Both the position numbers and the translations under genes were made by a program. DNA of 64,000 nt from Syntrophaceae bacterium UBA6109. GTDB lineage: Bacteria; Desulfobacterota; Syntrophia; Syntrophales; UBA6109. The notes under the pieces were generated by a model that saw only the letters and a list, made by a program, of their open reading frames with translations, was not told the origin of the DNA and did not search any database. Location: NCBI GenBank assembly GCA_002428445.1, contig DIWJ01000089.1, positions 1 through 64,000 on the forward strand. The letters are read 5' to 3'. Of the stretch, positions 9,209 to 39,467 are shown piece by piece. Each line of letters opens with the position of its first letter. Position 1 is the stretch's first letter.

Positions 9209-9257
9209 GGCTTCCCCCCGCTGGAAAGACAAAACAATATCCATGCCAGATAACTTT

Positions 9258-9337: not shown

Positions 9338-9362
9338 GGTCTTTCGGGGGAATACGGCGTCT

Positions 9363-10856: not shown

Positions 10857-10980
10857 GAACACACCCACCGGATGGGCAGAGATATCCTTCGCTGAACACT
10901 AGGGAAGGGAAGCCCCGGAGATTCCTGCAAAACAAGCTTTGACGACGTTGACCTCAGGTTCCGGCCCGACCGCCTGCGTC

Positions 10981-11196
10981 CTATCTTCCCTGTTCCTTCA
11001 GGATGACGTCGAGGACGCTGTAAGAGATCTTGTTATAGGCGTCCGCCAATCGCTCATCTTTTCCGGACAGGGAAACCGTGTCGGCATAGCGGTCCGACCG
11101 TGCGGCTTCCTGGGTCAAGGGCTGATAGATCTTGACTTTACTCTGCTTATTGTAGGCCTTGATGACACTGTCTACTTGATAAGCGGAAATCGTCAT
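10981..11196 (-). CDS. Small conserved flagellar-regulon protein of unknown function
   Basis: This 71-residue protein begins MTISAYQVDSVIKAYNKQ and ends NKISYSVLDVILKEQGR. It has no signal peptide or membrane segment and is probably helical. The start has a GAGGAG Shine-Dalgarno. A near-consensus sigma28 promoter lies just upstream (11247-11274), so it should be expressed with late flagellar genes. The middle segment DTVSLSGKDERLADA faintly recalls the DKVSLS part of FlgM, but a clear FlgM exists at 48484-48789. A resemblance to small hypothetical proteins beside flagellar genes in other deltaproteobacteria is recalled, not checked. Confidence 0.7.
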   Translation of the reverse strand: MTISAYQVDSVIKAYNKQSKVKIYQPLTQEAARSDRYADTVSLSGKDERLADAYNKISYSVLDVILKEQGR

Positions 11197-11246
11197 GATG
11201 CCACTCCTCACAACCAAGGCGCGGAACTTGCACTCTTGCATCCATA

Positions 11247-14895: not shown

Positions 14896-14952
14896 TGTTC
14901 AAGATCTCTCCCTGGGGATTGAAGTTCTCCGGAGCTTGCTCCGGAGAACTTC
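14839..14952 (-). repeat. Dispersed palindromic repeat, copy C (at the 3' end of a GT9 gene)
   Basis: A full-length reverse-oriented copy of 114 bp with both inverted repeats (CCCCGCGGC/GCCGCG and TTCTCCGGAGC TT GCTCCGGAGAA). The first half is translated as the C-terminus of the upstream GT9 protein, and its TGA (14893-14895) ends that gene. Confidence 0.9.
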
Positions 14953-15247
14953 AATCGGAATTCAGAGGAGACGAATTCGCCGCCGGCGGGAAAGGCTGAA
15001 GCCGGCCGGAAAATTTTTCCCATCCGGCGCCGCAGTTTTTGTCCTTTTTTCTAACACCCCGAACTTGCTGAAAAAATAAATGGCGACGACACTGGCACAT
15101 CGTTTGCAATTCTTAAGTTCACCTGAAAGTTGAATTCAAGTTTCCTGCCGCGGAAACCGAAAGAGCAGGCAAAGACACGAGGTGCGGTTCCGACGTTCGC
15201 GAACCATGCGGAATCGGAAAAAATCGACCGACCACAAGGAGCAGGAC
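14953..15247. other. Intergenic leader of the glycosylation island
   Basis: AT-richer than its surroundings, with T-runs at about 15040-15055, and holding a consensus sigma54 promoter at 15093-15108. About 140 nt separate the -12 element from the PseB-fusion start. No other gene is visible. Confidence 0.6.
15093..15108 (+). promoter_or_regulatory. Sigma54 (RpoN) promoter of the glycosylation operon
   Basis: TGGCACATCGTTTGCA matches the sigma54 consensus TGGCAC-N5-TTGCA exactly at the -24 GG and -12 GC, 10 nt apart. It is the only strong promoter-like site I see before the run of overlapping genes from 15248 to 37799, and it would place the operon under an activator such as a FlrC/FleQ-type protein (not in this window). 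Confidence 0.85.
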
Positions 15248-16603
15248 ATGGAGACCAGCGCAGAGTCGAAGATCCAGGAAGTCAGCCAGAATCTGGGAGT
15301 TCCTCCCTCCACCATTCGTTTCTGGGAAAGCGAGTTTCCCGAGTTCGTGAGGCCCAGGCGGACGGCCGGCGGGCAAAGGCGCTATTCGGAACGGGACGTG
15401 ATGAATCTCTCGCAGATCAAGGAACTGCTCCATATCAACAACCGCACCATCGACCAGGCCAGGCGAATCCTCAGGAAGGGGAATGCGGACATGGATACGA
15501 TCAACTGGGGAAAACAGTCCATCCTGATTACCGGGGGTACCGGTTCCTTCGGAAAACATTTCTGCAAGGTCATGATGGAACGCTACCACCCCCAGGTTCT
15601 CCGCGTCTACAGCCGCGACGAGCTGAAGCAGCACGAGATGCGGCAGGTCTTCGGGGAAGAACTGGTCCGTTACTTTATCGGGGACGTCCGCGATGCCGAA
15701 CGCCTGAGGCGGGCGATGGAAGGTTGCGACCTGGTCGTGCACGCCGCCGCCCTCAAGCAGGTCCCCTCCTGTGAGTACAACCCTTTCGAGGCCGTCAAGA
15801 CGAACATTCACGGCGCCGAGAACATCATTGATGCCGCCATCGACGTCGGGGTGAAGAAGGTCGTCGCCCTCAGCACGGACAAGGCCGTCAATCCCGTGAA
15901 CCTCTACGGGGCCACGAAGCTCTGCGCAGACAAGCTCTTCATCCAGGGCAATTCCTACTCCGGCGCCCGCGGCACCCGCTTCAGCTGCGTCCGTTATGGA
16001 AATGTCATCGGCAGCCGCGGGAGCGTCATCCCGCTGTTCAAGGAACAGAAGAAGACCGGCAGGATCACGATCACCGACGAGCGGATGACGCGCTTCTGGA
16101 TCACGCTCGACCATGCCGTCGATCTCGTCGTCCGCGCCTTCTGCCACATGCAGGGTGGAGAGATCTTCGTCCCGCGGATCCCCAGCATGAAGATTACGGA
16201 TCTGGCGGAGGCGGTCGCCCCCGATTGCGAGGTCGTGAACACCGGCATTCGTCCCGGCGAAAAGCTCCACGAGGTGCTGATCACGGAGGAAGAAGGACGC
16301 CATGCGGTGTCGTACGAGGGGATGTACGTCATCCTCCCCAATTATCCCTGGTGGGAACGCCAGAACTACAAGAGCGGGGGCCAGCTCCCGGAAGACTTCT
16401 CCTACGAAAGCGACAGCAACGATCAATGGCTCTCCGTAAGCGACCTGCGCAGGATGATCTACGATTTTTCCGCGGAAAAGGATCCGGCGGCGCAGTTCCT
16501 TTCCACCCTGCACAGGCTCAATGAAAAGGTCGTATTGAACATGGTCAATGCCGAGGAAGGCTTCGCGGAGCTTCCCTTGGCGGAAGGAGCCGGAGCGAGA
16601 TGA
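15248..16603 (+). CDS. pseB: MerR-type DNA-binding domain fused to PseB (UDP-GlcNAc 4,6-dehydratase, inverting)
   Basis: The C-terminal part (about 82-451) is PseB, first enzyme of pseudaminic-acid synthesis: it converts UDP-GlcNAc to the 4-keto-6-deoxy-L-arabino product. It shows the nucleotide motif ILITGGTGSFGKHF, HAAALKQVPSCEYNP, ALSTDKAVNPVNLYGATKL (which replaces the usual YxxxK by a family-specific Met/Tyr-Lys pattern) and RYGNVIGSRGSVIPLF. Residues 1-78 form a MerR-type winged helix: SKIQEVSQNLGVPPSTIRFW, then ESEFPEF, PRRTAGGQRRYSERDV and IKELLHINNRTIDQARRIL. There is no stop between the two parts. ATG 15248 has AAGGAG 6 nt upstream; an internal ATG at 15491 with AGGAAGGGG upstream could yield PseB alone. 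A DNA-binding head on this enzyme is unusual and could give product-responsive autoregulation (inference). Confidence 0.9.
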   Translation: METSAESKIQEVSQNLGVPPSTIRFWESEFPEFVRPRRTAGGQRRYSERDVMNLSQIKELLHINNRTIDQARRILRKGNADMDTINWGKQSILITGGTGSFGKHFCKVMMERYHPQVLRVYSRDELKQHEMRQVFGEELVRYFIGDVRDAERLRRAMEGCDLVVHAAALKQVPSCEYNPFEAVKTNIHGAENIIDAAIDVGVKKVVALSTDKAVNPVNLYGATKLCADKLFIQGNSYSGARGTRFSCVRYGNVIGSRGSVIPLFKEQKKTGRITITDERMTRFWITLDHAVDLVVRAFCHMQGGEIFVPRIPSMKITDLAEAVAPDCEVVNTGIRPGEKLHEVLITEEEGRHAVSYEGMYVILPNYPWWERQNYKSGGQLPEDFSYESDSNDQWLSVSDLRRMIYDFSAEKDPAAQFLSTLHRLNEKVVLNMVNAEEGFAELPLAEGAGAR

Positions 16604-17823
16604 TGACGATCCCTTTGAGAATCCCCAGACGGTCGAGATGGAATGATGCCCGCGGCCACAGCCCCGTTCTTCCCTACGGACGGCAAAGCATCAAGGCGGA
16701 TGACATCGAAGCAGTCATACAGGTTCTGAAATCGGACTGGCTGACGACGGGACCCGCCGTCGAAGAGTTCGAAAACGCTTTTGCCGCCTTCGTCGGAGCC
16801 CGATACGCCGTAGCCGTCTCGAGCGGCACGGCCGCACTGCATGCCGCCATGCATGCGGCCGGGATCGGCGCCGGCGACCAGGTGATCGTCCCGCCCCTGA
16901 CATTCGCCGCTACGGCCAATGCCGTAATCTATCAGGGCGGACATCCTATTTTCGCGGACATCGACCCAAAAACGCTGCTGCTGGATCCCGAGGCGGCGGA
17001 GGAGTGCGTCTCGGAGCGCGCCCGCGCCGTGGTCGCCGTCGATTACGCGGGGCAGCCCTGCGACTACGACGCCCTTCGCAACCTTGCCGACCGCTGCGGG
17101 CTCGCGCTCATCGCCGATGCCTGCCACTCCCTCGGCGCGGAGTACAAGGGGAAAAAGACGGGAACCATCGCCGACCTCAGCGTCTTCAGCTTTCATCCCG
17201 TAAAGCACATCACGACCGGCGAGGGCGGCATGATCACCACGGACAACTCCGAACTCGCGGCCCGGATGCGCCGTTTCCGCAATCACGGCATCGACACCGA
17301 CCACCGGCAGAGGGCCGGGAACGGAACCTGGCACTACGAGATGCTGGATCTGGGCTACAATTATCGTTTGAGCGACATCTCCTGCGCGCTGGGGACGAGC
17401 CAGCTCCGCAGGCTTCCGGAGACGCTCGCGCGGCGGCGCGAACTCGCCTCGGCATACGACCGCGCCTTCTCCGGCTGGAGCTCTCTAGACATCCCGGAGA
17501 CATCGCCCTCCGTACGCCACGCCTATCATCTCTATCCGGTGCGCTACCGGGCGGACCGCACGGGCGGGGACCGGGGCAATTTTTTCCGTCTCCTGCGGGA
17601 GCAGAGAATCGGGGCCAATGTCCATTACCTCCCCGTCCACCTCCATCCTTATTACTCGAAACGCTACGGCTACCGGCGCGGCGACTACCCCGTGGCGGAG
17701 GCCGCCTATGACGAGTTGATCAGCCTCCCCCTCTTTCCGGCCATGACCGACGGGGACCAGAATCGGGTGATCGAGGGCGTCCGGCAGGCGATCGCCCTCG
17801 ACTCGCGCAAGGACCGAGTATGA
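16600..17823 (+). CDS. pseC: UDP-4-keto sugar aminotransferase PseC
   Basis: This PLP enzyme (DegT/DnrJ/EryC1 family) transfers the amino group from glutamate to C4 of the PseB product, giving UDP-4-amino-4,6-dideoxy-beta-L-AltNAc. The 407 residues include LPYGRQSIKADDIEAV, SGTAALHAAMHAAG, the PLP-contacting DACHSLGAEYKG, and Lys202 in FHPVKHITTGEGG as the Schiff-base lysine. The start overlaps the pseB stop by 4 bp (or ATG 16603 is used), so the pair is co-translated. Confidence 0.93.
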   Translation: MMTIPLRIPRRSRWNDARGHSPVLPYGRQSIKADDIEAVIQVLKSDWLTTGPAVEEFENAFAAFVGARYAVAVSSGTAALHAAMHAAGIGAGDQVIVPPLTFAATANAVIYQGGHPIFADIDPKTLLLDPEAAEECVSERARAVVAVDYAGQPCDYDALRNLADRCGLALIADACHSLGAEYKGKKTGTIADLSVFSFHPVKHITTGEGGMITTDNSELAARMRRFRNHGIDTDHRQRAGNGTWHYEMLDLGYNYRLSDISCALGTSQLRRLPETLARRRELASAYDRAFSGWSSLDIPETSPSVRHAYHLYPVRYRADRTGGDRGNFFRLLREQRIGANVHYLPVHLHPYYSKRYGYRRGDYPVAEAAYDELISLPLFPAMTDGDQNRVIEGVRQAIALDSRKDRV

Positions 17824-18857
17824 GCAGCCGGTCCGGACGGGAGAAAGTCCCGCAAAAGCCGCGCATCCTCGTGATCGGGTGCGGCTCCATCGGAAAGCGC
17901 CACATCTCGAACCTGATCGCCCTGCGTGCCGGCGACATACGCGCCTGCGACGGGGCACCCGAACGGGCTCAAGAAACGGGAACGCGTTTCGGGATCGAGA
18001 CCGGAACCAGCCTTGCGGCGGCCTGGAAATGGAAACCGGACGTTGTCCTCATCGCGACGCCTCCGTCCTCCCACGTGGAACTGGCTCTCGAGGCGGCCCG
18101 GCGCGGCTGCGATCTCTTCATCGAAAAGCCGCTCTCCAACCGCACACGCGGCATCCGGGAGCTGTCCGGCCTGGTGCGGGGAAAAGACCTCGTCAGCATG
18201 GTGGGCTGCAATCTGAGATTCCACCCGGGGCTCGTGCGCGTGAAACAGCTTCTCGAGGAGAGGCAAATCGGACGGGTGGTATCGGCCAACGTCGAATTCG
18301 GCCAGTACCTGCCGGACTGGCATCCGGCCGAAGACTACCGGAACGGCTACAGCGCGCGTGTCGACCTCGGCGGCGGCATCATTCTCGACGCCATTCACGA
18401 GATCGATTACATCCGCTGGCTGATCGGCGAGGTCAAGGCCGTCGCCTGCATGGCAGGCATCTTCAGCAGCCTCGAGCTTCGGACCGAGGATACGGCGGCG
18501 ATGCTCCTGTACTTCACCCGCGGTGCTGTGGGGGAGGTCCACCTCGATTATGTCCAGCGCGCCTACAGCCGCCGCTGCAAAGTCGTCGGAGAGGACGGCA
18601 CGATCGCCTGGGACTTCACGGCAGGGACCGTCCGCTGGTTCGCAGCCGACGACGGCTGCTGGCGCACCTTCCGCACCCCCCGGGCCTGGGACGTCAATCG
18701 CATGTATATCGACGAAATGCGTCATTTCCTCGCTTCGCGGGCAGGCCGGACGCGGACCTGTCTTGATGTCGCCGAAGCCTCGCGCGTGCTGGAGATCGCC
18801 TTCGCAGCGAAACGCTCGGCAAGATCCGGCACATTCGTTCAGATGGAAGGTCGTTGA
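17820..18857 (+). CDS. Gfo/Idh/MocA-family NAD(P)-dependent oxidoreductase
   Basis: A 345-residue sugar oxidoreductase of unknown substrate. The N-terminal Rossmann domain has ILVIGCGSIGKRHISNL; the catalytic EKP motif is present (IEKPLSN, about residue 102), and the C-terminal GFO/IDH beta-sheet domain has DLGGGIILDAIHEIDY with the conserved His. It is not one of the six classical Pse enzymes, so it may adjust an oxidation state or epimer of the sugar, giving a variant nonulosonate. It overlaps pseC and is followed 20 bp later by the next gene. Confidence 0.88.
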   Translation: MSSRSGREKVPQKPRILVIGCGSIGKRHISNLIALRAGDIRACDGAPERAQETGTRFGIETGTSLAAAWKWKPDVVLIATPPSSHVELALEAARRGCDLFIEKPLSNRTRGIRELSGLVRGKDLVSMVGCNLRFHPGLVRVKQLLEERQIGRVVSANVEFGQYLPDWHPAEDYRNGYSARVDLGGGIILDAIHEIDYIRWLIGEVKAVACMAGIFSSLELRTEDTAAMLLYFTRGAVGEVHLDYVQRAYSRRCKVVGEDGTIAWDFTAGTVRWFAADDGCWRTFRTPRAWDVNRMYIDEMRHFLASRAGRTRTCLDVAEASRVLEIAFAAKRSARSGTFVQMEGR

Positions 18858-18877
18858 GAATGGAGAGGAGAAACCCT

Positions 18878-20947
18878 TTGAATAATAAACCGAACGTCGT
18901 CGCCGTTGTTCAGGCCCGAATGGGTTCCAGCCGACTGCCAAACAAGGTCCTGGAGCCGATCCTCGACAAACCGATGCTGCAGCACGTCGTCGAGCGTGTC
19001 CGGCGGGCACAGGCTGTGGACAAGGTTGTCGTCGCCACGACGGACCGCCCCGCGGACGATGCCGTCGAAGCATTCTGCCGTGCCCACCGCATCAATCTCT
19101 TCCGCGGCAGCGAAGAGGATGTCCTGGATCGCTTCTATCGCGCCTCGTCGGCGTTCGGCGCCGACATCGTGGTGCGGATCACCGCCGACTGCCCGCTGAT
19201 CGATCCGGTTGTCGTGGACAAGGTCATTCTCCGCGCGCTCGCCGGGGATGATGTCGACTACGTGACGAACCGCCTGCGCTACACCTATCCGGACGGACTG
19301 GACGTCGAGACGTTTTCTTTCGCCGCCCTCGAAAGGGCCTGGAAGGAGGCTCATCTGCCCGCGGACCGCGAACACGTAACGAGTTACATCCGCAACCCCG
19401 AACGCTTCCGGATCGCCGGCGTGGAGAACGAAACCGATCTGTCGCTGCGCAACCTGCGCTGGACCGTCGACGAGCCGTCGGACCTGCAATTCGTCCGTAC
19501 CGTCTACCAGCGTCTGGGAGGCAACGGGAATCCTTTCGGCCTCCCGGAAGTCCTCGCCCTCCTGGACCGCGAGCCCGACATTGCACGGATCAATGCGGGC
19601 GGAATCCGCAATCAAGGATTCTATCGCTCGCTGGCCCGCGAAGCGGCGCCGCCGGCGCGTTCGCGGAGCATCGTGCAGTCGCTGGCCCTTCTGGCGCGCG
19701 CACGGCGGGTCATCCCCTCCTGCACGCAGACGATGAGCAAGGGACCGACCCAGTTCGTCCAGGGAGTGGCGCCCGTATTCCTGGCGCGAGGGAAGGGCTG
19801 CCGCGTCTGGGACGTCGACGGAAACGAATACATCGACTACCCTCTGGCCCTGGGACCCGTGATCCTCGGTCACGACTATCCCGCCGTGACGGAGGCGGCC
19901 ACCCGGCAGATGGCGGACGGCACTTCTTTCTCCCTGCCCCATCCCCTGGAGGTGGAGGTGGCGGAGATTCTGACCGAGGCCATCCCCTGCGCGGAGATGG
20001 TCCGATTCGGCAAGAACGGCTCCGATGCAACCGCCGGCGCGGTCCGCGCCGCACGCGCCTTTACGGGCCGGGAAGTGATCGCCTGCTGCGGATACCACGG
20101 CTGGCAGGACTGGTACATCGCCTCAACGACAAGGAATCGCGGCGTACCGAAGAGCTGCCGCGAGCTTATCCTCCCCTTCCCGTACAATGACCTCTCCTCT
20201 GTGGAGCGGATCTTCCGGGAGCATCCGGGCCGCGTAGCTGCGGTTATCCTGGAACCCGCGGGCGCCGTCGAGCCCCGGAACGGCTTCCTCGAGAAACTCC
20301 GCGAGCTTACGACCCGGGAGGGAAGCGTCCTCATCTTCGATGAAGTCATCACCGGTTTCCGTCTGGCCCTCGGCGGCGCCCAGGAATATTTCGGCGTAAC
20401 GCCCGACCTGGGCTGTTTCGGCAAGGCCATGGCCAACGGATATCCGCTTTCCGCGGTCGTCGGCAAACGAGAAATCATGTCGCTCTTCGACGAGGTCTTC
20501 TTTTCGTTCACCTTCGGCGGCGAGGCCCTTTCCCTGGCCGCGGCCAAGGCGACGATTGCGGAAATGAAACGCTGCAATGTCATCGGGCATCTCTGGGAAC
20601 AGGGGCAGAAGCTCAAGGATGGCTTTAACGTCCTGGCGGAAGAGTTCGGCGTTGCCGCCCACGCCTCCTGCCGCGGATACGCGCCGCGGACGGTGATCAG
20701 CTTTCTGGACGAGGCGGGCGGCGAATCGCTTCTGTATAAGAGCCTTTTCCAGCAGGAGTGCCTCAAGCGCGGCATCCTCTTCATGGGCTTCCATAACTTG
20801 TGCTTCTCCCATGCCGACTCCGATATCGACGAAACGTTGCGCGTCTACCGCGCCGCCTTCGAGATCTTCGCCGAGGCGATCCGCTGCGGCGACGCCGCGG
20901 CGCGGCTGGAGGGCGAACCGCTGCAGCCGGTTTTCCGGAAGGCGTGA
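18878..20947 (+). CDS. SpsF/PseF-like cytidylyltransferase fused to a class-III aminotransferase
   Basis: Residues about 3-235 form an SpsF-type nucleotidyltransferase (VVAVVQARMGSSRLPNKVL, RITADCPLIDP), a relative of CMP-sugar synthetases and the likely CMP-nonulosonate activator here. Residues about 270-680 form a class-III PLP aminotransferase of the glutamate-1-semialdehyde-aminomutase branch: CTQTMSKGPTQFVQGV, GNEYIDY, FGKNGSDATAGAVR, FDEVITGFR and the Schiff-base Lys in GCFGKAMANGYPLSAV. The start is taken at TTG 18878 because GGAGAGGAG sits 6-7 nt upstream; in-frame ATG 18860 is the alternative. SpsF and such aminotransferases are often neighbouring genes, and here one chain carries both. 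Confidence 0.88.
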   Translation: MNNKPNVVAVVQARMGSSRLPNKVLEPILDKPMLQHVVERVRRAQAVDKVVVATTDRPADDAVEAFCRAHRINLFRGSEEDVLDRFYRASSAFGADIVVRITADCPLIDPVVVDKVILRALAGDDVDYVTNRLRYTYPDGLDVETFSFAALERAWKEAHLPADREHVTSYIRNPERFRIAGVENETDLSLRNLRWTVDEPSDLQFVRTVYQRLGGNGNPFGLPEVLALLDREPDIARINAGGIRNQGFYRSLAREAAPPARSRSIVQSLALLARARRVIPSCTQTMSKGPTQFVQGVAPVFLARGKGCRVWDVDGNEYIDYPLALGPVILGHDYPAVTEAATRQMADGTSFSLPHPLEVEVAEILTEAIPCAEMVRFGKNGSDATAGAVRAARAFTGREVIACCGYHGWQDWYIASTTRNRGVPKSCRELILPFPYNDLSSVERIFREHPGRVAAVILEPAGAVEPRNGFLEKLRELTTREGSVLIFDEVITGFRLALGGAQEYFGVTPDLGCFGKAMANGYPLSAVVGKREIMSLFDEVFFSFTFGGEALSLAAAKATIAEMKRCNVIGHLWEQGQKLKDGFNVLAEEFGVAAHASCRGYAPRTVISFLDEAGGESLLYKSLFQQECLKRGILFMGFHNLCFSHADSDIDETLRVYRAAFEIFAEAIRCGDAAARLEGEPLQPVFRKA

Positions 20948-20949
20948 CC

Positions 20950-22005
20950 ATGAAGGGAACCCTCCTCATACGCGCCGACGGCAACAAAGGGATCGGCGCC
21001 GGCCACGTGATGCGCTGCCTCGCGCTGGCCCAGGCGTGGCAGGACGGAGGCGGGATGGCCGTCTTCGCGTTCGCTTCCGCGTCTCCGGCCCTGAAAAAAA
21101 GACTGAAGAGCGAGGGAATGAAAACGGCGGCGGTTAAGGCGACAGCGGGAGGAAACAGGGATGCAAGGAAGACGGCGGCGATTGCCCTCAGGCTCGGCGC
21201 TTCCTGGGTCGTCGTCGACGGATACGCCTTCGGCGCCGACTATCTCGCACGCCTGCGTGTCGACGGACTCCGCCTGGCGCTGATCGACGACAACGGCATT
21301 GTCGAACGCCATGAGGCCGAGATTGTGATCAACCAAAATCTCTACGCCCGGGAGGATCGCTACCGAAGGCAGGGAAAGAACACAGGTCTCCTGTTGGGGA
21401 GTCGCTACGCGCTGATCCGCCGCGAGTTTCTCGGGCAACGCACCAACCGGAGAAGGTTCAGGGAAAAGGGGTACCGGGTTCTGGTGACTTTGGGCGGCGC
21501 CGATCCCCTCGGGCTCAGCCCGGCAGCCATCCGCGCCCTGGGGAAACTCGCGCCGGCGGAACTCGAAGTCCGCGTTGTTGTCGGTCCGGCCAACCCGAAC
21601 GGGAATCGCTGCCGGGAGGAGATGCGCGCGGCGTCCCTGCGGGGCGAAGTGATATCGGCAGCGGAGAATATGGCGGAGCATATGGTCTGGGCGGATGTCG
21701 CCGTCGCCGCGGCGGGGAGCACCTGCTGGGAGATGGCCTGCCTGGGCCTGCCTGCGATCCTGGTCGTCACGGCGGACAACCAGGCCCCGATCGCCGCGTC
21801 CCTGCACGAGGCCGGGATCGCACGGAGCCTGGGCCGTCCGGGCCTTACGCTGGAATCGCGGATCGCAGCGGCGGCAAAGGGGCTCCTGGCCGATGCCGCT
21901 GCACGCCGGGAAATGTGCCGGCGGGGACGGAAACTGATCGATGGGCGCGGCGCAGAACGGGTCGCCCGCGTCTTGATGAAACGTCAGGAAGGAAGACAAC
22001 CGTGA
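20950..22005 (+). CDS. pseG: UDP-2,4-diacetamido-2,4,6-trideoxy-altropyranose hydrolase PseG
   Basis: This enzyme removes UDP from the 2,4-diamino-trideoxy hexose before condensation with PEP. The 351-residue protein has the GT-B-like PseG fold with DGNKGIGAGHVMRCLALAQ (catalytic His), VVVDGYAFGADYL, LALIDDNG, VLVTLGGADPLGLS and AAAGSTCWEMACLGLPA. The start is ATG 20950, 2 bp after the previous stop. The stop overlaps the GTG start of the formyltransferase. Confidence 0.92.
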   Translation: MKGTLLIRADGNKGIGAGHVMRCLALAQAWQDGGGMAVFAFASASPALKKRLKSEGMKTAAVKATAGGNRDARKTAAIALRLGASWVVVDGYAFGADYLARLRVDGLRLALIDDNGIVERHEAEIVINQNLYAREDRYRRQGKNTGLLLGSRYALIRREFLGQRTNRRRFREKGYRVLVTLGGADPLGLSPAAIRALGKLAPAELEVRVVVGPANPNGNRCREEMRAASLRGEVISAAENMAEHMVWADVAVAAAGSTCWEMACLGLPAILVVTADNQAPIAASLHEAGIARSLGRPGLTLESRIAAAAKGLLADAAARREMCRRGRKLIDGRGAERVARVLMKRQEGRQP

Positions 22006-22799
22006 GGATCGTTTTCTTCGGCAACAACCGCGTCGGCTGGCAGGTTCTCAAAACCCTCCGGGAATCCGGCGAGGAGATCGCCGGAATCGCGCTTCACCCG
22101 CCGGGGCGGCGCCAGTTCGGCGGGGAAATCCTCGCGGCCGCCAACCTGGCGCCCGAGTCCGTCCTTGACGGTTCACGACTCTCCGATCCGGCTGTTATCG
22201 GGCGTCTCCGCGAGTTGCAGCCGGAGATAGGGATCAGCGCCTTCTTCGGATATCTCCTCCGGAAAGAGGTCCTGGCTCTCTTTCCCCGGGGCGTGATCAA
22301 TCTCCACCCCGCCCTGCTGCCCTACAATCGCGGCGCATACCCCAACGCCTGGAGCATCCTCGACGGGACGCCGGCGGGCGCAACGATCCACGCCGTCGAC
22401 GAGGGCATCGACACGGGCGACATCCTGGCCCGCCGGGAAGTCCCGGCGGAGCCGATCGACACGGCGGAGACGCTGTATCGAAAGCTGGAAAAGGCCTGCG
22501 TCGAACTCTTCGCCGATTCCTGGCCTGCAATCCGCGACGGGGCGGCCGTGCGCCAGCCCCAGCCGTCGGCTGCCGGGACTTTCCACCGGGTGCGGGACAT
22601 CGAAGAACTGGCGGAGATCGATCCCGAGCAATCGTATCCCGCGGGACGCCTCCTCGACCTGATCCGGGCGCAGACCTTCCCGCCCTACCGCGGCGCCTTC
22701 ATCCGGCGGAACGGACGGAAGATCTACCTGCGGATGGAACTTTTGTACGAAGAATCGCTGAAAGGACCTGTCCATGGAAACAGGCATCCGGATCGGTAA
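22002..22799 (+). CDS. Formyltransferase-family protein (sugar N-formyltransferase candidate)
   Basis: A 265-residue protein with the Formyl_trans_N fold of methionyl-tRNA and sugar formyltransferases. The catalytic Asn-His-Asp triad is intact: INLHPALLPYNRGAYPNAW followed by DEGIDTGDILARRE. It could use N10-formyl-THF to N-formylate an amino sugar of the pathway instead of acetylating it. It begins with GTG overlapping the PseG stop (GTGA), with AGGAAGGA upstream. The 3' end overlaps pseI by 26 bp. Confidence 0.87.
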   Translation: MRIVFFGNNRVGWQVLKTLRESGEEIAGIALHPPGRRQFGGEILAAANLAPESVLDGSRLSDPAVIGRLRELQPEIGISAFFGYLLRKEVLALFPRGVINLHPALLPYNRGAYPNAWSILDGTPAGATIHAVDEGIDTGDILARREVPAEPIDTAETLYRKLEKACVELFADSWPAIRDGAAVRQPQPSAAGTFHRVRDIEELAEIDPEQSYPAGRLLDLIRAQTFPPYRGAFIRRNGRKIYLRMELLYEESLKGPVHGNRHPDR

Positions 22800-23919
22800 C
22801 TGCATCGTCGGTGGCGGCCGGCCGGCCTATATCGTCGCGGAGATGTCGGCGAACCACCACAACGACTTCCGCGAAGCCGTGCGCATCCTCGAAGCGGCCA
22901 GAGAAGCGGGCGCCGACGCGGTGAAGATCCAGACCTACCGGGCGGATTCGCTGACGATTGATTGCGACCGCGAGGCCTTCCGGATCAAGGATACGCTCTG
23001 GGGCGGGCGAACCCTCTACGACCTGTACGCCGAGGCCGCCACCCCGTGGGAGTGGCAGCCGGAATTGAAGCAGATCGCCGGCCGTCTCGGCATGGACCTC
23101 TTCTCCTCGCCCTTCGACGGGGAAGCCGTCGATTTTCTGGAACGGATGGAGGTGCCGGCCTACAAGGTCGCGTCCTTCGAGATTGTGGATATCGGATTGA
23201 TCGAAAAGATGGCCGCGACGGGCAAGCCGCTGATCCTTTCGACGGGGATGGCCTCCGAGGCGGAAATCGGCGAGGCTCTTGAGGCGGCGCGCCGCGCCGG
23301 ATCGACGCAACAGATCCTTCTCAAGTGCACGAGCGCCTATCCCGCGCCGCCGGAATCGATGAACCTCCGGACACTCCCCGCCATGGCCGCGGCTTTCGGA
23401 GTGCCCGCGGGTATTTCCGATCACACCCTGGGAATCGCCGTTCCCGTTGCAGCCGTCGCTCTGGGCGCCTGCCTCGTGGAAAAGCACTTCACGCTTTCGC
23501 GGAGCATCGCCGGCCCGGACAGCGCCTTTTCCCTGGAGCCGCAGGAATTCCAGGCGATGGTCGACGCCGTGCGGACCGCCGAGAAGGCCCTGGGCGGGAT
23601 CCGCTACGGCATCGGCCCTGCGGAGGACAAGAGCCTCGTTTTCCGCCGTTCGCTGTTTGTCGTGGCGGACGTAAAGGCCGGCGAGAGGTTCAGCGGGCGC
23701 AACCTCCGTTCCATCCGCCCCGGCTACGGCCTGCCCCCCAGGCATCTGCCGCAGATCCTGGGCCGGCGGGCCCGGATCGATATCGAGCGGGGCACGCCGC
23801 TCGGCTGGCACATGATCGACGAAACGCATCATCACGCAGGCGCAAGCCTGGAGAGAGGAGACAAAGTTCATGAAGGATCTCAAGCGCTGCAGCCGTTGCC
23901 TCCTGCCGGAAACCCATGA
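22774..23919 (+). CDS. pseI: Pseudaminic-acid-type nonulosonate synthase PseI (NeuB family)
   Basis: PseI condenses the 6-deoxy diamino hexose with phosphoenolpyruvate to form the nine-carbon acid. Of 381 residues, about 1-270 form the NeuB TIM barrel (AYIVAEMSANHHNDF, DAVKIQTY, FSSPFDGEAVDFL, YKVASFEI, STGMASEAEI, LLKCTSAYPAPP, GISDHTLG, VEKHFTLSRS), and about 285-345 form the SAF antifreeze-like domain (RRSLFVVADVKAGE). The C-terminal 30 residues look non-conserved and overlap the next gene by 50 bp. NeuB relatives for legionaminate and sialate are close, but the PseB/C/G context favours PseI. Confidence 0.92.
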   Translation: METGIRIGNCIVGGGRPAYIVAEMSANHHNDFREAVRILEAAREAGADAVKIQTYRADSLTIDCDREAFRIKDTLWGGRTLYDLYAEAATPWEWQPELKQIAGRLGMDLFSSPFDGEAVDFLERMEVPAYKVASFEIVDIGLIEKMAATGKPLILSTGMASEAEIGEALEAARRAGSTQQILLKCTSAYPAPPESMNLRTLPAMAAAFGVPAGISDHTLGIAVPVAAVALGACLVEKHFTLSRSIAGPDSAFSLEPQEFQAMVDAVRTAEKALGGIRYGIGPAEDKSLVFRRSLFVVADVKAGERFSGRNLRSIRPGYGLPPRHLPQILGRRARIDIERGTPLGWHMIDETHHHAGASLERGDKVHEGSQALQPLPPAGNP

Positions 23920-25093
23920 AACGATCGTCTTCGACGACGCGGGGCTCTGCAACATCTGCCGCCAGCAGGAATTCAAGCAGAAGGCCATCGACTGGAATGT
24001 GAAGAAACGGGAACTCGATCAGCTGATCGAAACCTATCGGGGAAAGTCCGACTACGACTGCATTGTGCCCTTCAGCGGCGGCAAGGACAGTACCTGGACC
24101 CTCTACTACCTGGTCAAGGAATACAGACTGAAACCCCTGGTGGTCCGCTTCGACCACGGCTTCCTGAGGCCGACCGTCAGCGAAAACACGCTGCGGACCG
24201 CCCGGGCACTAGGCGTCGACGTGCATCATTTCACTCCGAACTGGTGCGTCGTCCAGAAGCTGATGCTCCAGAGCTTCCTCGAGAAGGGCGATTTCTGCTG
24301 GCACTGCCATACGGGGATCTTCGCCTACCCCATGCGGGTGGCGATCAATTACCGCGTGCCGCTCGTGATCTGGGGAGAGCCGTCCTCGGAATACACCGCC
24401 TATTACAGCTACGACCAGCCTGAAGAGGTCGACGAAAAACGCTTCAACCGCTACATCAACCTGGGCATCGGCGCCGACGACATGTTCGTGCGCCTGGAGG
24501 GAATGGTGGACAGCCGCGATCTCGACCCCTTCCGTTACCCGCCGCTCAAGGAGTTGCGGAACCTCAACTACCGGTCCGTCTGCCTGGGATCCTTCATCCC
24601 CTGGGACGTCAGGAGACAGTCGGCGATCATCCGGGACGAACTGGGCTGGAAGGGCGACGAGGTGGAAAACGTTCCGCCCGGCTACGACTACGAGAAGATC
24701 GAATGCTGCCTGCAGGGAGTGCGGGATTACATCAAGTTTGTCAAGCGGGGCTACAGCCGTCCCACCCACCTGGCCTCCATCGATATCCGCAACAACCGCC
24801 TCTCCCGCAGAGGGGGTCTGGACATGATCGAACGGTACGAGGGCCGAAGGCCGCCGAGCCTGGACCTCTTCCTGAAATTCGTCGGCCTCACGGAGGCGGA
24901 GTTCATGGACATCGCCAGGAGCCACATGGTCTCACCCTACCGGCATGACGGGCGGCCGGCGAAACAGGGGGAGAAGGTCCACGATTTCGGCGTCTGGCCC
25001 CGGTACGGCGAGATGCCCCGCGAAGAGGCCCTGGTCCAGTTGGAACGCTTTCTCCGTCGCGACCGCGCCCGCGTAACGGCGGCGGCAGGATGA
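23870..25093 (+). CDS. pseA: N-acetyl sugar amidotransferase (PseA/WbpG family)
   Basis: Homologues (PseA in Campylobacter, WbpG in Pseudomonas) convert an N-acetyl group on a sugar to acetamidino, using ammonia. The 407 residues include an N-terminal zinc-binding-like CSRCLLPETHE...CNICRQ, the ATP-pyrophosphatase PP-loop VPFSGGKDSTW, FCWHCHTG, and a conserved GYSRPTHLASIDIRN segment. It is followed directly by HisH- and HisF-like genes, the same trio seen in O-antigen clusters making acetamidino sugars. It overlaps both neighbours. Confidence 0.9.
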   Translation: MKDLKRCSRCLLPETHETIVFDDAGLCNICRQQEFKQKAIDWNVKKRELDQLIETYRGKSDYDCIVPFSGGKDSTWTLYYLVKEYRLKPLVVRFDHGFLRPTVSENTLRTARALGVDVHHFTPNWCVVQKLMLQSFLEKGDFCWHCHTGIFAYPMRVAINYRVPLVIWGEPSSEYTAYYSYDQPEEVDEKRFNRYINLGIGADDMFVRLEGMVDSRDLDPFRYPPLKELRNLNYRSVCLGSFIPWDVRRQSAIIRDELGWKGDEVENVPPGYDYEKIECCLQGVRDYIKFVKRGYSRPTHLASIDIRNNRLSRRGGLDMIERYEGRRPPSLDLFLKFVGLTEAEFMDIARSHMVSPYRHDGRPAKQGEKVHDFGVWPRYGEMPREEALVQLERFLRRDRARVTAAAG

Positions 25094-25716
25094 ACATCGT
25101 GGTGGGCATCGTTGATTACGGCATGGGCAACCTCCTCTCCGTTCAGCACGCCCTGGAGTTTCTGGGCGCGGACACGGCGATCCTCGGGAACCCGCGAGAG
25201 CTGGAGCGGGCGGACCGTCTGGTCCTGCCCGGCGTCGGCGCCTTTGCAGAAGGGATCCGCCGGCTCCGCGAAACCGGCCTCGCCGATGCGCTCGGCGAGG
25301 CGGCCACGGGCCGTCTCGTCCCCATCCTCGGCATCTGCCTGGGCATGCAGCTCATGGCCCGGCGCGGTTTCGAAGGCGGCGCCCGTGACGGCCTCGGCTG
25401 GTTCGACGGCGATGTCGTCCGGCTCCCCCGGGAAGCGCAGTCCGTCCGCCTGCCGCACGTCGGATGGAACGAGGTTTCCTGGCGCAAGGAAAGCGTTCTT
25501 TTCCGCGATCTGCCGCCGCTCGCCGACTTTTACTTCGTTCACTCCTATCACCTGGAGTGCAAAGACAATCGGGATGTCGAGGCCGTTTGCGAATACGGCA
25601 TCCCCTTCACCGCCGCCGTGCGAAAGGACAACATCTTCGCAACGCAGTTTCACCCTGAAAAGAGTCAGGACTACGGCATCAGGGTCCTGGAAAATTTCCT
25701 GAAATGGAGGCCGTGA
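25090..25716 (+). CDS. hisH: HisH-like glutamine amidotransferase (ammonia donor)
   Basis: A class-I glutaminase subunit that supplies ammonia to its HisF-like partner. In 208 residues it shows GIVDYGMGNL, the oxyanion/PGVGAF motif, the nucleophile Cys in GICLGMQLMA, and the His-Glu pair in TQFHPEKSQD. Its place after the sugar amidotransferase and before HisF, with no other his genes, points to acetamidino-sugar synthesis rather than histidine biosynthesis. Confidence 0.92.
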   Translation: MNIVVGIVDYGMGNLLSVQHALEFLGADTAILGNPRELERADRLVLPGVGAFAEGIRRLRETGLADALGEAATGRLVPILGICLGMQLMARRGFEGGARDGLGWFDGDVVRLPREAQSVRLPHVGWNEVSWRKESVLFRDLPPLADFYFVHSYHLECKDNRDVEAVCEYGIPFTAAVRKDNIFATQFHPEKSQDYGIRVLENFLKWRP

Positions 25717-25720
25717 ACCG

Positions 25721-26509
25721 GTGCTGAAGAGGAGGCTGATCCCGAAACTCCAGATGAAGGCAAGCCGCTTCGGATCGACCGTGCGGATGGTGCTCGTCAC
25801 CACGATCCGGTTCGACCAGGTGATCGAAATCGGCGATCCCGTCTCGCAGGCGAAGATCTACGAGGCGCAGGCCGCGGACGAACTGATCTTTCTGGATCTC
25901 GACGCGTCCGCGGAACACCGCGACACCCTGATGGACGTCGTGCGCCGCTCCGCCGAGGAGATCTTCATGCCCTTCACCGTGGGCGGAGGAGTCCGCAGCA
26001 TCGGCGATTTCCGCAGGCTGCTTGCCGGAGGCGCGGACAAGGTGAGCATCAATACGGCGGCTGTGCAGAGGCCGGGGTTGATTACGGAGGCGGCGGATAC
26101 GTTCGGTGTCCAATGTGTGGTCCTCTCCATTGACTATCGACGGAACGCTGACGGAACCGGCCGCGTCTGGATCAACGGCGGCCGCGGGGAGACGCCGCTC
26201 GATCCCGTTGGCTGGGCGGAAGAAGGAGAGCGCCGGGGCGCCGGGGAGATTCTCCTCACCGCCGTCGACCGCGACGGAACCAGGCAGGGACTGGACCTCG
26301 AAACCACGCGCCGGGTCGCCGAGCGCGTATCGATCCCCGTCATCGCGTCGGGCGGCTGCGGCCTCGCCGTCCATTTCGTCGACGGCTTTCTCGAGGGAAA
26401 GGCGGACGCGGTTTCGGCCGGGACCTATTTCTGCTTCAAGGACGAAAATCCGATGCAGACGCGCTCGCGGATCAAGAACGCGGGCATCCCCGTCCGCCTG
26501 CATACCTAG
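25721..26509 (+). CDS. hisF: HisF-like cyclase subunit partnering the sugar amidotransferase
   Basis: A 262-residue (beta-alpha)8 barrel of the HisF family: RLIPKL, ELIFLDLDAS, FTVGGGVRSIGDF, GADKVSINTAAV, AVDRDGTRQGLDLE and PVIASGGCG. True HisF has catalytic Asp11 in CLDV; here the first strand reads RLIPKLQMKASRF without that Asp, consistent with a barrel that channels ammonia instead of making IGP. It starts with GTG 4 bp after hisH. Confidence 0.9.
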   Translation: MLKRRLIPKLQMKASRFGSTVRMVLVTTIRFDQVIEIGDPVSQAKIYEAQAADELIFLDLDASAEHRDTLMDVVRRSAEEIFMPFTVGGGVRSIGDFRRLLAGGADKVSINTAAVQRPGLITEAADTFGVQCVVLSIDYRRNADGTGRVWINGGRGETPLDPVGWAEEGERRGAGEILLTAVDRDGTRQGLDLETTRRVAERVSIPVIASGGCGLAVHFVDGFLEGKADAVSAGTYFCFKDENPMQTRSRIKNAGIPVRLHT

Positions 26510-33564: not shown

Positions 33565-33584
33565 GGATGGAAAGGAGCACCGGC

Positions 33585-35507
33585 ATGCCCGAAGCGGCGT
33601 TTGTCGAAAAGAATATGGCGGCGCTGAGAACGCGCTACCCCGGAATCGCGAAACGTCTGGCGGATCGATCCTGCAGGGATGGACGTCTCCGCGTCGTCCG
33701 TTCCGCCAATGGCGAGCCGAATCTGATCGCCGCACAGGAAGGGCGTTTCAAGATGCTCTATGATTTCGACGCGCCGATTGTCCGATGCCGCGACTATCTC
33801 AACGGCCTGCAGATGAGATCCGCGCCCATCGTCGTTTTCCTCGGGATGGGACTGGGATATCACCTCTCCATGTTTGTGCGGCACTACGCGGAGCGTTTGG
33901 GCACAAAAAAAGTCATTGTCTTCGAAGAAGACATCGACATGCTGCTTCTGGCGCTGCGCCACATCGATCTGCACGAGATCATCGCCCATCCGGACGTACA
34001 GCTTTTCATCGGGGAAGACATCGAAAGCGCCCATCTGACGCTGCGCCAGGAAGTCGCCATGGACAAGGGCACGCAGAACTTCATGAGGGGTACAAGGGTC
34101 ATTCCGCTGCCCGTTCACTTAAGGCTGAGTCCGGACTACTACCGCCGGGCGGTTCAGGCCACGAAACGCGCCTTCGCCCAGATGATGATCCTGGCCGGCA
34201 ATGATCCGATTGATTCGTTCCTGGGCATGGACAATCTGCTCATGAACATCCCGCACATCGTTTCCAATCCCGGCATCAGCCTCCTCTTCAAGCGTTTCAG
34301 CGGGAAACCGGCCGTGACGGTCGCCTCGGGGCCTTCCCTGAACAGGAATATCCATCTGCTCAAGGAACTTCGCGAACGGGCGCTGATCGTCTGCTGCGAT
34401 GCAAGCTTTCTTCCGCTGATGAAGAGGGGAATCCGCCCGCACCTGGTGGTCGGATTCGAACGCACCGACGGATCCGAATTCTTCTACGAGGGGATACCGG
34501 ATTTCGACGGCATCTATCTGGCCATCTGCCCGCTTGTCCGCCCCCGCACATTCGACAGCTTCAAGGGGAAGAAGATCATCGCCCAGCGCGCCTTTTCCCA
34601 CTTCGATTGGCTCCGCCAGGACAAGGGAACGCTGTCGATCGGGCCCTGTGTCGGCAACATGGCCTACAAGGTCGCAGAAGTCCTGGGCTGCGATCCGATC
34701 ATCATGATCGGCCAGGACCTGGCATTTGCCTCGGACGGGGACACCCATGTCAAGGACATGCCCTTCGGGGAACGGGACGAGTTCTATCACGAGAAGGTCC
34801 TCGAAGTGGAGGGGAACGACGGCCGGCCGATCAAGACTTCCAAGGCCTGGGATGTGTTCCGCATCGCCTTCGAAGAGGATATCCGCGGCAACCAGGGGGT
34901 CACCGTCAATGCAACGGAGGGGGGCGCAAAAATCCGGGGGGCGATGGTCATGACTTTCCGGGAGGCCATCGATACCTACTGCCGGGAGGATTTCTTCCCC
35001 CTGTCGATCATCGATAAGGCCCTGGCGGGCTTTGAAGATTCGCTCGACATCCCGGCGGAACTCGAGAAGTTTCATGTTCGCATCGACGGCACGTACGGAA
35101 AACTTGCCTCCCTGCTGGGACAGCTCAAAGAGCTGATGACCGAAGCGAGGAAAGTGCAGCAGGACTTTCTCCTGCCCTTCATCCGGGAGGGAAAGGCCTT
35201 CGACCGGGCGCCCCTCGAGGAACTTACGAAGAAGTTCCTGGGGCTGCTTGACGGGTACCTGAATGACCGGGATGTGCACGACATCATGCTTCATACCGTC
35301 CAGCCGCACAGCCTCTGGTTCGCAAACCGATTCAATATCCTGCCCGATCTGTACGACGATCCGGATATCCTTCTGGCGGCCCAGGTCATGATGATCAAGG
35401 ATTGGCTCGGCGTGGTGGGACAGCTCTTCGTCTCGACGATGGATGCCCTGGCAAAGGCGGGACCGATGCTGACGAAAGAACTTGAAAGGCAGGCCCATGC
35501 TTCCTGA
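33585..35507 (+). CDS. maf: Motility accessory factor (Maf) flagellin glycosyltransferase, DUF115
   Basis: Maf proteins transfer CMP-nonulosonates to Ser/Thr of flagellin before export. The 640 residues have a Maf N-terminal domain (about 40-210, VVFLGMGLGYHLSMF), the MAF_flag10/DUF115 catalytic domain (about 235-450: AVTVASGPSLNRN, VCCDASFLPLMKRGIRPHLV, PCVGNMAYKVAEVLGCDPII, GQDLAFA) and a helical C-terminal domain. ATG 33585 with AAAGGAG at 8-9 nt is preferred to ATG 33567. It sits between the sugar-synthesis genes and the flagellin gene, which supports the role. Confidence 0.92.
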   Translation: MPEAAFVEKNMAALRTRYPGIAKRLADRSCRDGRLRVVRSANGEPNLIAAQEGRFKMLYDFDAPIVRCRDYLNGLQMRSAPIVVFLGMGLGYHLSMFVRHYAERLGTKKVIVFEEDIDMLLLALRHIDLHEIIAHPDVQLFIGEDIESAHLTLRQEVAMDKGTQNFMRGTRVIPLPVHLRLSPDYYRRAVQATKRAFAQMMILAGNDPIDSFLGMDNLLMNIPHIVSNPGISLLFKRFSGKPAVTVASGPSLNRNIHLLKELRERALIVCCDASFLPLMKRGIRPHLVVGFERTDGSEFFYEGIPDFDGIYLAICPLVRPRTFDSFKGKKIIAQRAFSHFDWLRQDKGTLSIGPCVGNMAYKVAEVLGCDPIIMIGQDLAFASDGDTHVKDMPFGERDEFYHEKVLEVEGNDGRPIKTSKAWDVFRIAFEEDIRGNQGVTVNATEGGAKIRGAMVMTFREAIDTYCREDFFPLSIIDKALAGFEDSLDIPAELEKFHVRIDGTYGKLASLLGQLKELMTEARKVQQDFLLPFIREGKAFDRAPLEELTKKFLGLLDGYLNDRDVHDIMLHTVQPHSLWFANRFNILPDLYDDPDILLAAQVMMIKDWLGVVGQLFVSTMDALAKAGPMLTKELERQAHAS

Positions 35508-38039: not shown

Positions 38040-39467
38040 ATGGGTCTTCGAATTCAGAACAACATCGCCGCGCTGAACGCGCATCGCCAGTTGGGAATCT
38101 CCGATGCGGGCATGTCCAAGTCGCTGGAGAGACTCTCGTCCGGTTATCGTATCAACAGGGCCGCCGATGATGCGGCGGGATTGGCCATTTCTTCGGGTTT
38201 CCGCGCCAACATCGCGAGCTTCAAGGTTGCCTCGCGCAACACGTCGGAAGCCAACGCTCTGTTGCAGGTCGCCGAAGGCGGTATGGAACAGGTTGAAAAC
38301 ATGCTGACCCGGTTGAAGGAACTGGCCACCCAGGCCTCGTCCGCCAACGTCGGAACCAGCGAGCGCGTCAAGCTGAACGCGGAAGGAAACGCGCTGATCT
38401 CCGAAATCGACCGGATCGCCAACGCGACCAAGTACGGCAGCACGAACCTCCTGGACGGCACCTTCGGCGCCTCCAAGAGCGCCGGCACGTACGCCATCGC
38501 CACCAACGCGAAGGTCTACGGCGACATGGCCTTTGCCTATTCCGTCGCCGTCGGCACGGCCAACACGGGAATCCTCGACATGGGAATGACGATTACGACC
38601 ATGGCGGCGGATATGGTCGAAGGCAACTGGACCTTCAGTGCGACGGACGCCACCCATGTCAAGATCATCGGCAACGGTGTTTCGGAAACCGTGACAGCGG
38701 CAATCGCCGGCGCAGTTTCCGGTTCGCAGACGCTCAGTTTCGTCAATCTCGGACTCACCATCACGGTCAACTGCAGCACCACAAGCGCGGCGTGGACCGG
38801 TGCGATTCTCTCCGTGAGAGACACGGGCGTCAGCAGCCTCAACGTTACGGGCGCTGCCACCGGAACCTGGACCTTTGCGACGGCGGGCACCGGCGCAGTC
38901 ACGCTGGGCAACGGGACGGTGTCGCAGACGATCTCCGACATCAACCCGGGCACGGCCGCAGCGTTGAATTTCGACACGCTGGGCATCACCTTCAGCCTGG
39001 GTGCGAACTACGACGAGAACGATCTCGAGGGCATCAACTTCCTGGTTTCCTCAACGGGCAGCGGTTCGACCTTCCAGATCGGGGCGGACAACGACAGCAA
39101 CAACCGCATCTCTCTGAGCGTCGGCAACGTCATCGGTTCTTCTTCGAGCGGTTTGGCGTTGAGCTTCGATTACCTCGATTCCTCGACGGAAGCACAGAGC
39201 ATGCTCGACATGGTGGACAGCGCCATGAGTACGCTGGCCTCCCGCCGAGCCGACATCGGCGCCTCCATGAACCGGTTGTCCTATGCCGCAGCGAACCTCT
39301 CGACGACCATCGAGAATACCCAGGCTGCGGACTCGGTCATCCGTGACGTCGACATGGCGGCGGAAATGACAACCTTCACCAAGAACCAGATCCTGATGCA
39401 GGCCGGCATGGCGATGCTGGCCCAGGCGAACCAGGCCCCGCAGCTCATTCTGTCGCTGCTCCAGTAG
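38040..39467 (+). CDS. fliC: Flagellin
   Basis: The filament subunit, exported by the flagellar type III system. The 475 residues have conserved N-terminal D0/D1 (MGLRIQNNIAALNAHRQL, LSSGYRINRAADDAAGLAIS) and C-terminal D1/D0 (ASRRADIGASMNRL, QAGMAMLAQANQAPQLILSLLQ). The central variable region (about 150-375) is rich in Ser/Thr/Gly and holds two degenerate copies of a module of about 70 residues (NWTFSATDATHVKIIGNG... and TWTFATAGTGAVTLGNG...), candidate sites for the O-linked sugars made by the adjacent island. A sigma28 promoter and GGA-rich leader precede it, and a terminator follows. Confidence 0.97.
   Translation: MGLRIQNNIAALNAHRQLGISDAGMSKSLERLSSGYRINRAADDAAGLAISSGFRANIASFKVASRNTSEANALLQVAEGGMEQVENMLTRLKELATQASSANVGTSERVKLNAEGNALISEIDRIANATKYGSTNLLDGTFGASKSAGTYAIATNAKVYGDMAFAYSVAVGTANTGILDMGMTITTMAADMVEGNWTFSATDATHVKIIGNGVSETVTAAIAGAVSGSQTLSFVNLGLTITVNCSTTSAAWTGAILSVRDTGVSSLNVTGAATGTWTFATAGTGAVTLGNGTVSQTISDINPGTAAALNFDTLGITFSLGANYDENDLEGINFLVSSTGSGSTFQIGADNDSNNRISLSVGNVIGSSSSGLALSFDYLDSSTEAQSMLDMVDSAMSTLASRRADIGASMNRLSYAAANLSTTIENTQAADSVIRDVDMAAEMTTFTKNQILMQAGMAMLAQANQAPQLILSLLQ

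Follow-up and report, generated by a model that had tools for sequence, protein, structure and literature searches.

The first gene of a nonulosonate cluster in the 64,000-nucleotide stretch of DNA analysed here (the window) encodes what is, on its profile matches and open frame, a MerR-type DNA-binding head that is followed, after a short linker, by a complete PseB. We consider it probable that the protein is a bifunctional enzyme-regulator, in which a PseB enzyme carries a MerR head that acts on an operator of its own operon, and that it is an autorepressor. It is very likely that the enzyme regulates its own production, because in related bacteria the head and a matching DNA site occur together at its own cluster. 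To our knowledge, it is little understood how bacteria adjust sugar supply to flagellin export, and known examples of enzyme-repressor fusions are few. Self-regulation is directly testable in this family, which offers headless relatives, a catalytically degenerate branch and, besides the predicted operator, a second target operon.

Table 1. Coordinates of the fusion gene, its parts, the predicted control sites and associated genes in the window.
Feature	Position	Strand	Basis
Whole fusion gene, MerR-PseB	15248..16603	+	Open-frame reading; Pfam and NCBIfam profiles
MerR-type winged-helix head, residues 1-76	15248..15475	+	Pfam MerR_1; AlphaFold model
Linker, residues 77-88, contains in-frame ATG 15491	15476..15511	+	pLDDT <50 at 78-83
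PseB domain, residues 89-403	15512..16456	+	TIGR03589; T210-D211-K212, Y220, K224 intact
Sigma54 -24/-12 promoter TGGCACATCGTTTGCA	15093..15108	+	Exact consensus match
Proposed operator of the MerR head	15115..15143	+	Motif search, 34 fusion upstreams
Candidate second, sigma28-like promoter: -35 TCAAGTTT, -10-like CCGAAA 15157-15162	15136..15162	+	Box statistics
PseC aminotransferase, next operon gene	16600..17823	+	TIGR03588, 467.4 bits, cut-off 423.5
Remaining nonulosonate genes	17820..26509	+	Profile matches
Maf-type flagellin glycosyltransferase (MptE-like and Maf_flag10_N)	33567..35507	+	Profile matches
Flagellin	38040..39467	+	Flagellin_N and Flagellin_C

Architecture, family and locus of the fusion

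The gene is a single uninterrupted open frame of 451 aa with zero internal stops, and a Shine-Dalgarno-like AAGGAG (15236-15241) lies upstream of its ATG. Pfam MerR_1 (PF13411) matches residues 8-76 (E 1.2e-18, 67.4 bits against a cut-off of 21.6), Pfam Polysacc_synt_2 matches residues 92-362 (E 7.9e-104), and the NCBIfam PseB equivalog TIGR03589 scores 508 bits (cut-off 407.75). The open frame, Pfam and TIGR03589 agree on what an earlier note on this DNA had claimed, a MerR winged helix fused without a stop to a complete PseB. Proteins of the TIGR03589 class are hexamers with 5-inverting 4,6-dehydratase activity. The catalytic motif of PseB, given as [ST]DK-xn-Y-x3-K in PMC8987622, is present in the window protein as STDK, NLYG and ATK. 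A structure search with the whole model covered residues 83-433, i.e., the part after the head.

In the AlphaFold model, a monomer prediction, the head has helices at 9-16, 20-29, 48-63 and 68-77 and a wing strand at 44-46, with a mean pLDDT of 88-90 across residues 11-60. Helix 68-77 leads into the low-confidence linker and from there into the Rossmann fold. MerR proteins usually have a dimerisation helix at the place of this linker, and no antiparallel MerR dimerisation helix is seen between the head and the PseB fold in the monomer model. S21, T22, R24, W26 and the GGQRRY motif of the head are invariant across 23 aligned proteins; single changes at these otherwise invariant residues occur in L003, L011 and P0024. 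Head dN is below dS in nine of 11 close pairs (ratio about 0.03-0.2), and the other two pairs are saturated in dS.

A search with the head only (residues 1-88) identified 22 proteins among 36 candidates, and all 22 have MerR and PseB-type Pfam domains, so that the MerR_1 plus Polysacc_synt_2 architecture, for which the earlier note had suggested a search, recurs. The nearest relative, P0002, is 99% identical in the head and 96% identical over the full length. A further head search, with P0023 as the query, found two more proteins, the degenerate P0024 and the intact P0025. Of 528 confirmed stretches from a genome scan with the head alignment, the best 80 were kept, and these comprise 33 fusions and 47 free-standing MerR genes of 105-238 aa; the 33 fusion loci and the window form a discovery set of 34. 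Eleven fusion loci were added later: a phylum sample gave three, the order of G011 (titled as Syntrophaceae) one and two classes seven. This brings the fusion loci examined to 45, mostly from records titled as deltaproteobacteria, with L028 and L034 sharing one genome. PseB exceeds the cut-off in 45 of 247 genomes of the phylum sample, where five of the 45 are fused (two already known); strong matches occur in 12 of 155 genomes from the order of G011, with five of the 12 fused, and in 58 of 257 and 68 of 389 genomes of the two classes. With the fusion present at 45 loci and again in the near-identical P0002, an assembly error or frameshift is ruled out as its origin.

Across 32 fusion genomes there are 32 PseB hits over the cut-off, in 31 genomes, and all are fused (G028 has two; G009 has zero because its contig stops inside the gene). 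Thus, the fusion must also be the enzyme, and normally serves as the cell's PseB. Of 45 sampled PseB-bearing genomes, 44 also encode free-standing MerR proteins (open frames of 97-212 aa), which are a possible source of the fused head.

An in-frame ATG at codon 82, preceded by a purine-rich stretch, had been proposed to give a second form of the protein. This ATG is present in the window but is not conserved among the 34 loci, where the codon aligned with M82 is ATG in three and GTG in one. If any in-frame ATG or GTG within aligned positions 74-89 is counted, 10 of 34 loci have one, and an internal start as a conserved second form was rejected.

Judged from gene content, the fusion is the first gene of a pseudaminic-acid operon within a flagellar locus. 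That it heads a nonulosonate operon had been recognised before, and PseC, a cytidylyltransferase, PseG and PseI are indeed found downstream by profile. The genes after PseC are a Gfo/Idh/MocA oxidoreductase, a cytidylyltransferase-aminotransferase, PseG, a formyltransferase, PseI, an N-acetyl sugar amidotransferase, HisH and a HisF/WbuZ-like protein. In 28 of the 33 other loci, the first match beyond the fusion is again PseC; in L008, L009, L016 and L031 the contig ends without a further match, and in L025 PseC lies further along. Further on in the same locus are genes for the Maf glycosyltransferase, flagellin, FliD, FlaG, FliW, CsrA and FlgK. The flagellin is the likely acceptor of the sugar.

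Also encoded in this operon is a second fusion (18854-20947), in which a CTP_transf_3 cytidylyltransferase and a class-III aminotransferase share one 697-aa frame; the matches to these two domains are similarly spaced in several relatives. The product of 29813-31141 is a DUF4910/DUF2172 peptidase-like protein with weak winged-helix matches at its C terminus (HTH_47, HTH_28 and HTH_23, all below their cut-offs), and may be a further enzyme of the cluster that carries a DNA-binding piece.

Promoter region and proposed operator

The sigma54 site upstream of the fusion is the sole exact match in 64 kb to TGGCACNNNNNTTGCW, which we take to be the sigma54 consensus; at one mismatch there are three matches in the whole window against 1.06 expected. 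Sites with at most one mismatch occur in 21 of 34 fusion upstreams versus 32 of 9550 random 400-bp windows from the same loci, and exact sites in 9 of 34 versus 0 of 9573. When two mismatches are allowed, 26 of the 34 upstreams have a site and eight are without one even then.

The proposed operator is a 29-bp element with AAGTT half-sites at 15115, 15127 and 15138. It includes, at 15126-15143, an 18-bp near-dyad, AAAGTTGAATTCAAGTTT, and the dyad is perfect in L021. The family form is AAGTT-N6-AAAGTT-N2-ATT-N-AA[CG]TTT, i.e., three half-sites 11-12 bp apart. The window has one match to the operator, and 100 shuffles have none. The element begins 7 bp past the -12 element in the window, so that it roughly covers the transcription start (about -4 to +25, counting the C of the -12 GC as -12). 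Among 33 scored loci, 25 have its onset 2-15 bp past the -12 element, 18 of them 4-9 bp past it; six of the remaining loci have no candidate in reach, L016 has the operator 27 bp away and the candidate in L028 has three mismatches.

The right arm of the operator overlaps the -35 of a candidate sigma28 promoter. A [CGT]CGA[TA] box begins 9-17 nt past the operator at 26 of 38 loci, versus 467 of 7600 random positions, which suggests a second, sigma28 start that uses the right arm as its -35. The upstream region of the flagellin gene carries TAAAGTTG-N12-TCCGATAC. The strict sigma28 pattern, TAAAGTTT-N11-GCCGATAA with up to three mismatches, has zero matches in the window, and for this reason sigma28 remains the weaker claim. 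Crude consensus scans found no sigma70-type promoter with a 16-18 bp spacer upstream in the window, and none with a 19-20 bp spacer in its 300 bp upstream. The latter result speaks against a classical MerR target (sigma70 with a 19-20 bp spacer) in that region; the same crude scan gave 19-20 bp candidates in 8 of 34 fusion upstreams, at scattered positions.

Co-occurrence of head and operator

The operator is present at 43 of 45 fused pseB genes versus 0 of 58 headless pseB genes, where a call is the best match within about 600 bp upstream with five or fewer mismatches to AAGTTNNNNNNAAAGTTNNATTNAASTTT, a threshold chosen after the discovery set and the first 37 headless genes. Fisher p values, which ignore kinship, are 5.0e-27 and, with L007 counted as lacking it (42 of 45), 1.0e-25. 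The operator was found directly in 33 of the 34 discovery loci, in L007 via an overlapping contig, in two of three loci from the phylum sample, in L130 and in six of seven further loci, i.e., in 9 of 11 fused loci outside the defining set. The fused loci without it are L117 (seven mismatches) and L163 (six), and L117 has AAGTT/AACTT half-sites directly 3' of its sigma54 site. The headless genes comprise 37 of 42 phylum-sample hits, eight from the order of G011 and 13 of 95 rows from the two classes (all six that are at least 65% identical to the window protein, and seven more); the operator is absent from all three groups (0/37, 0/8 and 0/13), where the smallest value is six mismatches. The earlier note had suggested that the head binds the promoter of its own operon, and a conserved predicted site that comes and goes with the head, within the interval named there for a binding assay (14953-15247), speaks for this. 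From this pattern, we would expect with good confidence that the MerR head binds the 29-bp operator.

A tree of PseB domains, built by a quick method on 80 rows that do not include L009, P0010 or the active metagenome proteins, unites the fused rows in a single supported group; headless genes branch within this group or next to it. G818, G981, G236, G449 and G132 are inside the fused clade, G132 being on a long branch and placed differently in two trees, and G846, G1023 and G868 are beside it. All eight lack the operator. Their sigma54 sites are exact in G818 and G868, have one mismatch in G981, G846 and G132 and two in G236, and are absent in G449 and G1023. Elsewhere in the eight genomes there is no fused-type head, the MerR frames found being 118-152 aa long (zero of these in G1023), and no operator at one or fewer mismatches, with one 2-mismatch site in G846. 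Two independent contrasts fall on well-supported branches, both agreeing (sign test p 0.5), and six on the whole tree. As two supported contrasts are too few for significance, the case for co-occurrence is strong, not conclusive, and the pattern could stem in part from shared descent.

Near-perfect operators are rare elsewhere. Across 21 fusion genomes, 18 sites have one mismatch or none; 16 of these are at fusions, one is at L122 and one is at L123. The gene at L122 (G005:C326, 966-1625) encodes a MerR head alone, of 74 aa, behind a sigma54-like site and an operator of its own, and there is a further partial head match at 1482-1625; FlaG lies upstream of it and, about 2.4 kb downstream, there is an integrase-core gene, so that it is possibly a decaying duplicate. 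At L123 (G006, 6481-11235) the operator and a promoter that, by eye, resembles that of the fusion precede a methyltransferase / radical-SAM / MptE-like (Maf-like) operon, in which the MptE-like protein has a Maf N-terminal match of 20.3 bits, below the cut-off of 23.5. All 15 sites with at most two mismatches in L001-L080 are at fusion promoters, and the reversed pattern gave 0. At up to three mismatches whole genomes contain 51 sites versus 51 for the reversed-pattern control, which limits the informative sites to near-perfect ones. The 684 kb around 47 loci of free-standing MerR genes contain no operator with two or fewer mismatches, and the window has no near-perfect one at its other flagellar genes. 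The rarity of near-perfect sites rules out that the element is a general feature of flagellar promoters.

P0018-P0020, P0022 and P0023, and also P0024, have other residues in place of the catalytic D and K, and an R at the position of the SDR lysine; P0010 is divergent as well. PseB identity is 57% between the first five and active proteins versus 79% among active proteins, and head identity is 54% versus 55%. The invariant head residues are kept in this catalytically degenerate clade. A conserved head on a diverged PseB is what would be expected of a regulator made from a retired enzyme. The 155-genome order sample of G011 contains none of the degenerate proteins.

Regulatory model, alternatives and comparison with known systems

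In the model that we favour, the PseB half would convert UDP-GlcNAc to the first intermediate of a pseudaminic-type acid for flagellin glycosylation, an activity predicted from its intact residues. The MerR head would bind its dedicated operator at the transcription start of the sigma54 promoter and block RNA polymerase. Argued from operator position alone, autorepression is most likely, as an operator that covers the start should obstruct the polymerase. Plentiful PseB protein, or a particular ligand or oligomer state, would then shut its own operon. MerR proteins bind operators as dimers, and the fusion site has a dyad shape. Because the model lacks the MerR dimerisation helix, PseB assembly may pair the heads, with the enzyme oligomer in place of that helix. 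PseB relatives are hexamers of paired chains, and coenzyme was proposed as an assembly switch in WbjB (PMC5774825). A switch of this kind would be a possible route to sensing of metabolic state; by this analogy metabolite sensing by the fusion is plausible, and ligands may tune the action of the head.

A more specific version, which we regard as possible if doubtful, is that a PseB quaternary switch is itself the sensor: coenzyme and UDP-GlcNAc would set a dimer-hexamer balance, only one state would fit the three half-sites, and the Smithella-type clade would be a dead enzyme and pure regulator. The load of the first enzyme would then throttle the operon, and sigma54 and sigma28 would couple it to flagellar assembly. 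On the same reading, the Smithella-type clade would represent an enzyme turned transcription factor, built on a sugar-nucleotide fold, with intermediates still extant. If the proposed regulation is real, the fusion would also be a case of a MerR-type head acting at a sigma54 promoter without the usual dimer helix.

Among the alternatives, the element could be the site of a different flagellar regulator, such as a sigma54 activator that binds just downstream of the start, with the head doing something else. Sigma54 promoters require activators, and here the locus is flagellar and the promoter of sigma54 type. We nevertheless find this explanation unlikely, given that near-perfect sites occur almost solely at the fusion and not at the window's other flagellar genes, that headless relatives have sigma54 sites without the operator, and that the head-only gene also carries the operator. 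Improbable, too, is that the head binds the operator but activates, for example by bending DNA for sigma28 or by aiding sigma54 open complex formation. MerR proteins commonly turn from repressor to activator through DNA distortion (PMC9909328), but the fusion upstream in the window has no sigma70-type promoter with a 16-18 or 19-20 bp spacer, and the operator position 2-15 bp past the -12 element in 25 of 33 loci places it over the start.

A sigma28 promoter with repeated -35-like boxes in one clade, for which the fusion is an unrelated clade marker, is very improbable. This reading draws on the CCGA-type box in 26 of 38 loci and on AAAGTTGAATTC, which is contained in both the flagellin upstream and the operator. 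Against it, two more half-sites are conserved upstream of any -35, the right arm is often TAAACTTT, which departs from what we take to be the sigma28 -35 consensus, headless members of the same clade lack the element, and the strict sigma28 pattern is absent from the window. We give next to no credence to the head as a structural or relic domain (an oligomer contact or folding aid) with no DNA function: headless genes inside the fused clade imply that PseB works without a head, but S21, T22, R24, W26 and GGQRRY are near-invariant, even in the degenerate clade, and the operator is absent where the head is absent.

PutA and BirA have other DNA-binding folds, serve other pathways and use sigma70 promoters, unlike the fusion with its MerR head, sigma54 promoter and sugar-nucleotide dehydratase. 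Like the predicted autorepressor, they combine a metabolic enzyme with a repressor of the operon of their own pathway (PMC6978683). As in a trigger enzyme, the enzyme (its activity predicted from residues) and the DNA-binding domain are in one chain, at the operon of their own pathway. Trigger enzymes also control that operon according to substrate or product, and the operator that accompanies the head supports transcriptional control by the fusion. No description of a MerR-PseB fusion was found in the titles and opening abstract lines of the open-licence papers listed, or in passages of one of them, and nothing was found in the open literature on a trigger enzyme with MerR and a DNA-binding domain. 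The best reading is that the trigger-enzyme architecture of MerR head, sigma54 promoter and sugar-nucleotide dehydratase is new here.

The winged-helix head is common to the fusion and to the MerR family (GlnR/TnrA, CarH, CadR, MtaN, SoxR), and the best-scoring solved sequences for the head are GlnR, regulatory protein 4ua1 and CarH. Unlike these, the fusion has neither a long dimerisation helix nor the usual ligand-binding domain after the head. MerR family operators are inside the -35/-10 spacer, whereas no such spacer was found for the fusion operator in the window; long-spacer promoters are the typical MerR targets (PMC9909328). Like the fusion operator, the SoxR box of E. coli, CCTCAAGTTAACTTGAGG, has AAGTT/AACTT in an 18-bp dyad (PMC4411124), though with half-sites that are closer together. 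Free-standing MerR genes in similar genomes, unlike the fusion, have no fusion-type operator with two or fewer mismatches nearby at the 47 loci scanned. The PseB half resembles FlaA1 (2gn4) by profile, fold and catalytic motif; FlaA1 aligns from the Rossmann fold onward, and the fusion adds an 85-residue DNA-binding head before it.

Other features were identified upstream of the fusion. The sequence CACAAGGAGCAGGACATGG at 15233-15251, which spans the start, resembles a CsrA site, judged by a motif that we presume to be the CsrA one, and csrA and fliW are in the same locus; no CsrA-like site is seen in two relatives compared by eye (L001 and L002). A perfect 19-bp inverted repeat (14917-14956) is located directly 3' of the upstream glycosyltransferase gene, and the region 14900-14975 has a folding energy of -43.7 kcal/mol (z -6.6). 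A T-run is absent 3' of the inverted repeat, which may therefore be an unusual terminator or a barrier. Also present is a repeat pair, 9258-9335 and 14839-14917 (38 nt at 100% and 34 nt at 91%), the second copy of which adjoins the hairpin.
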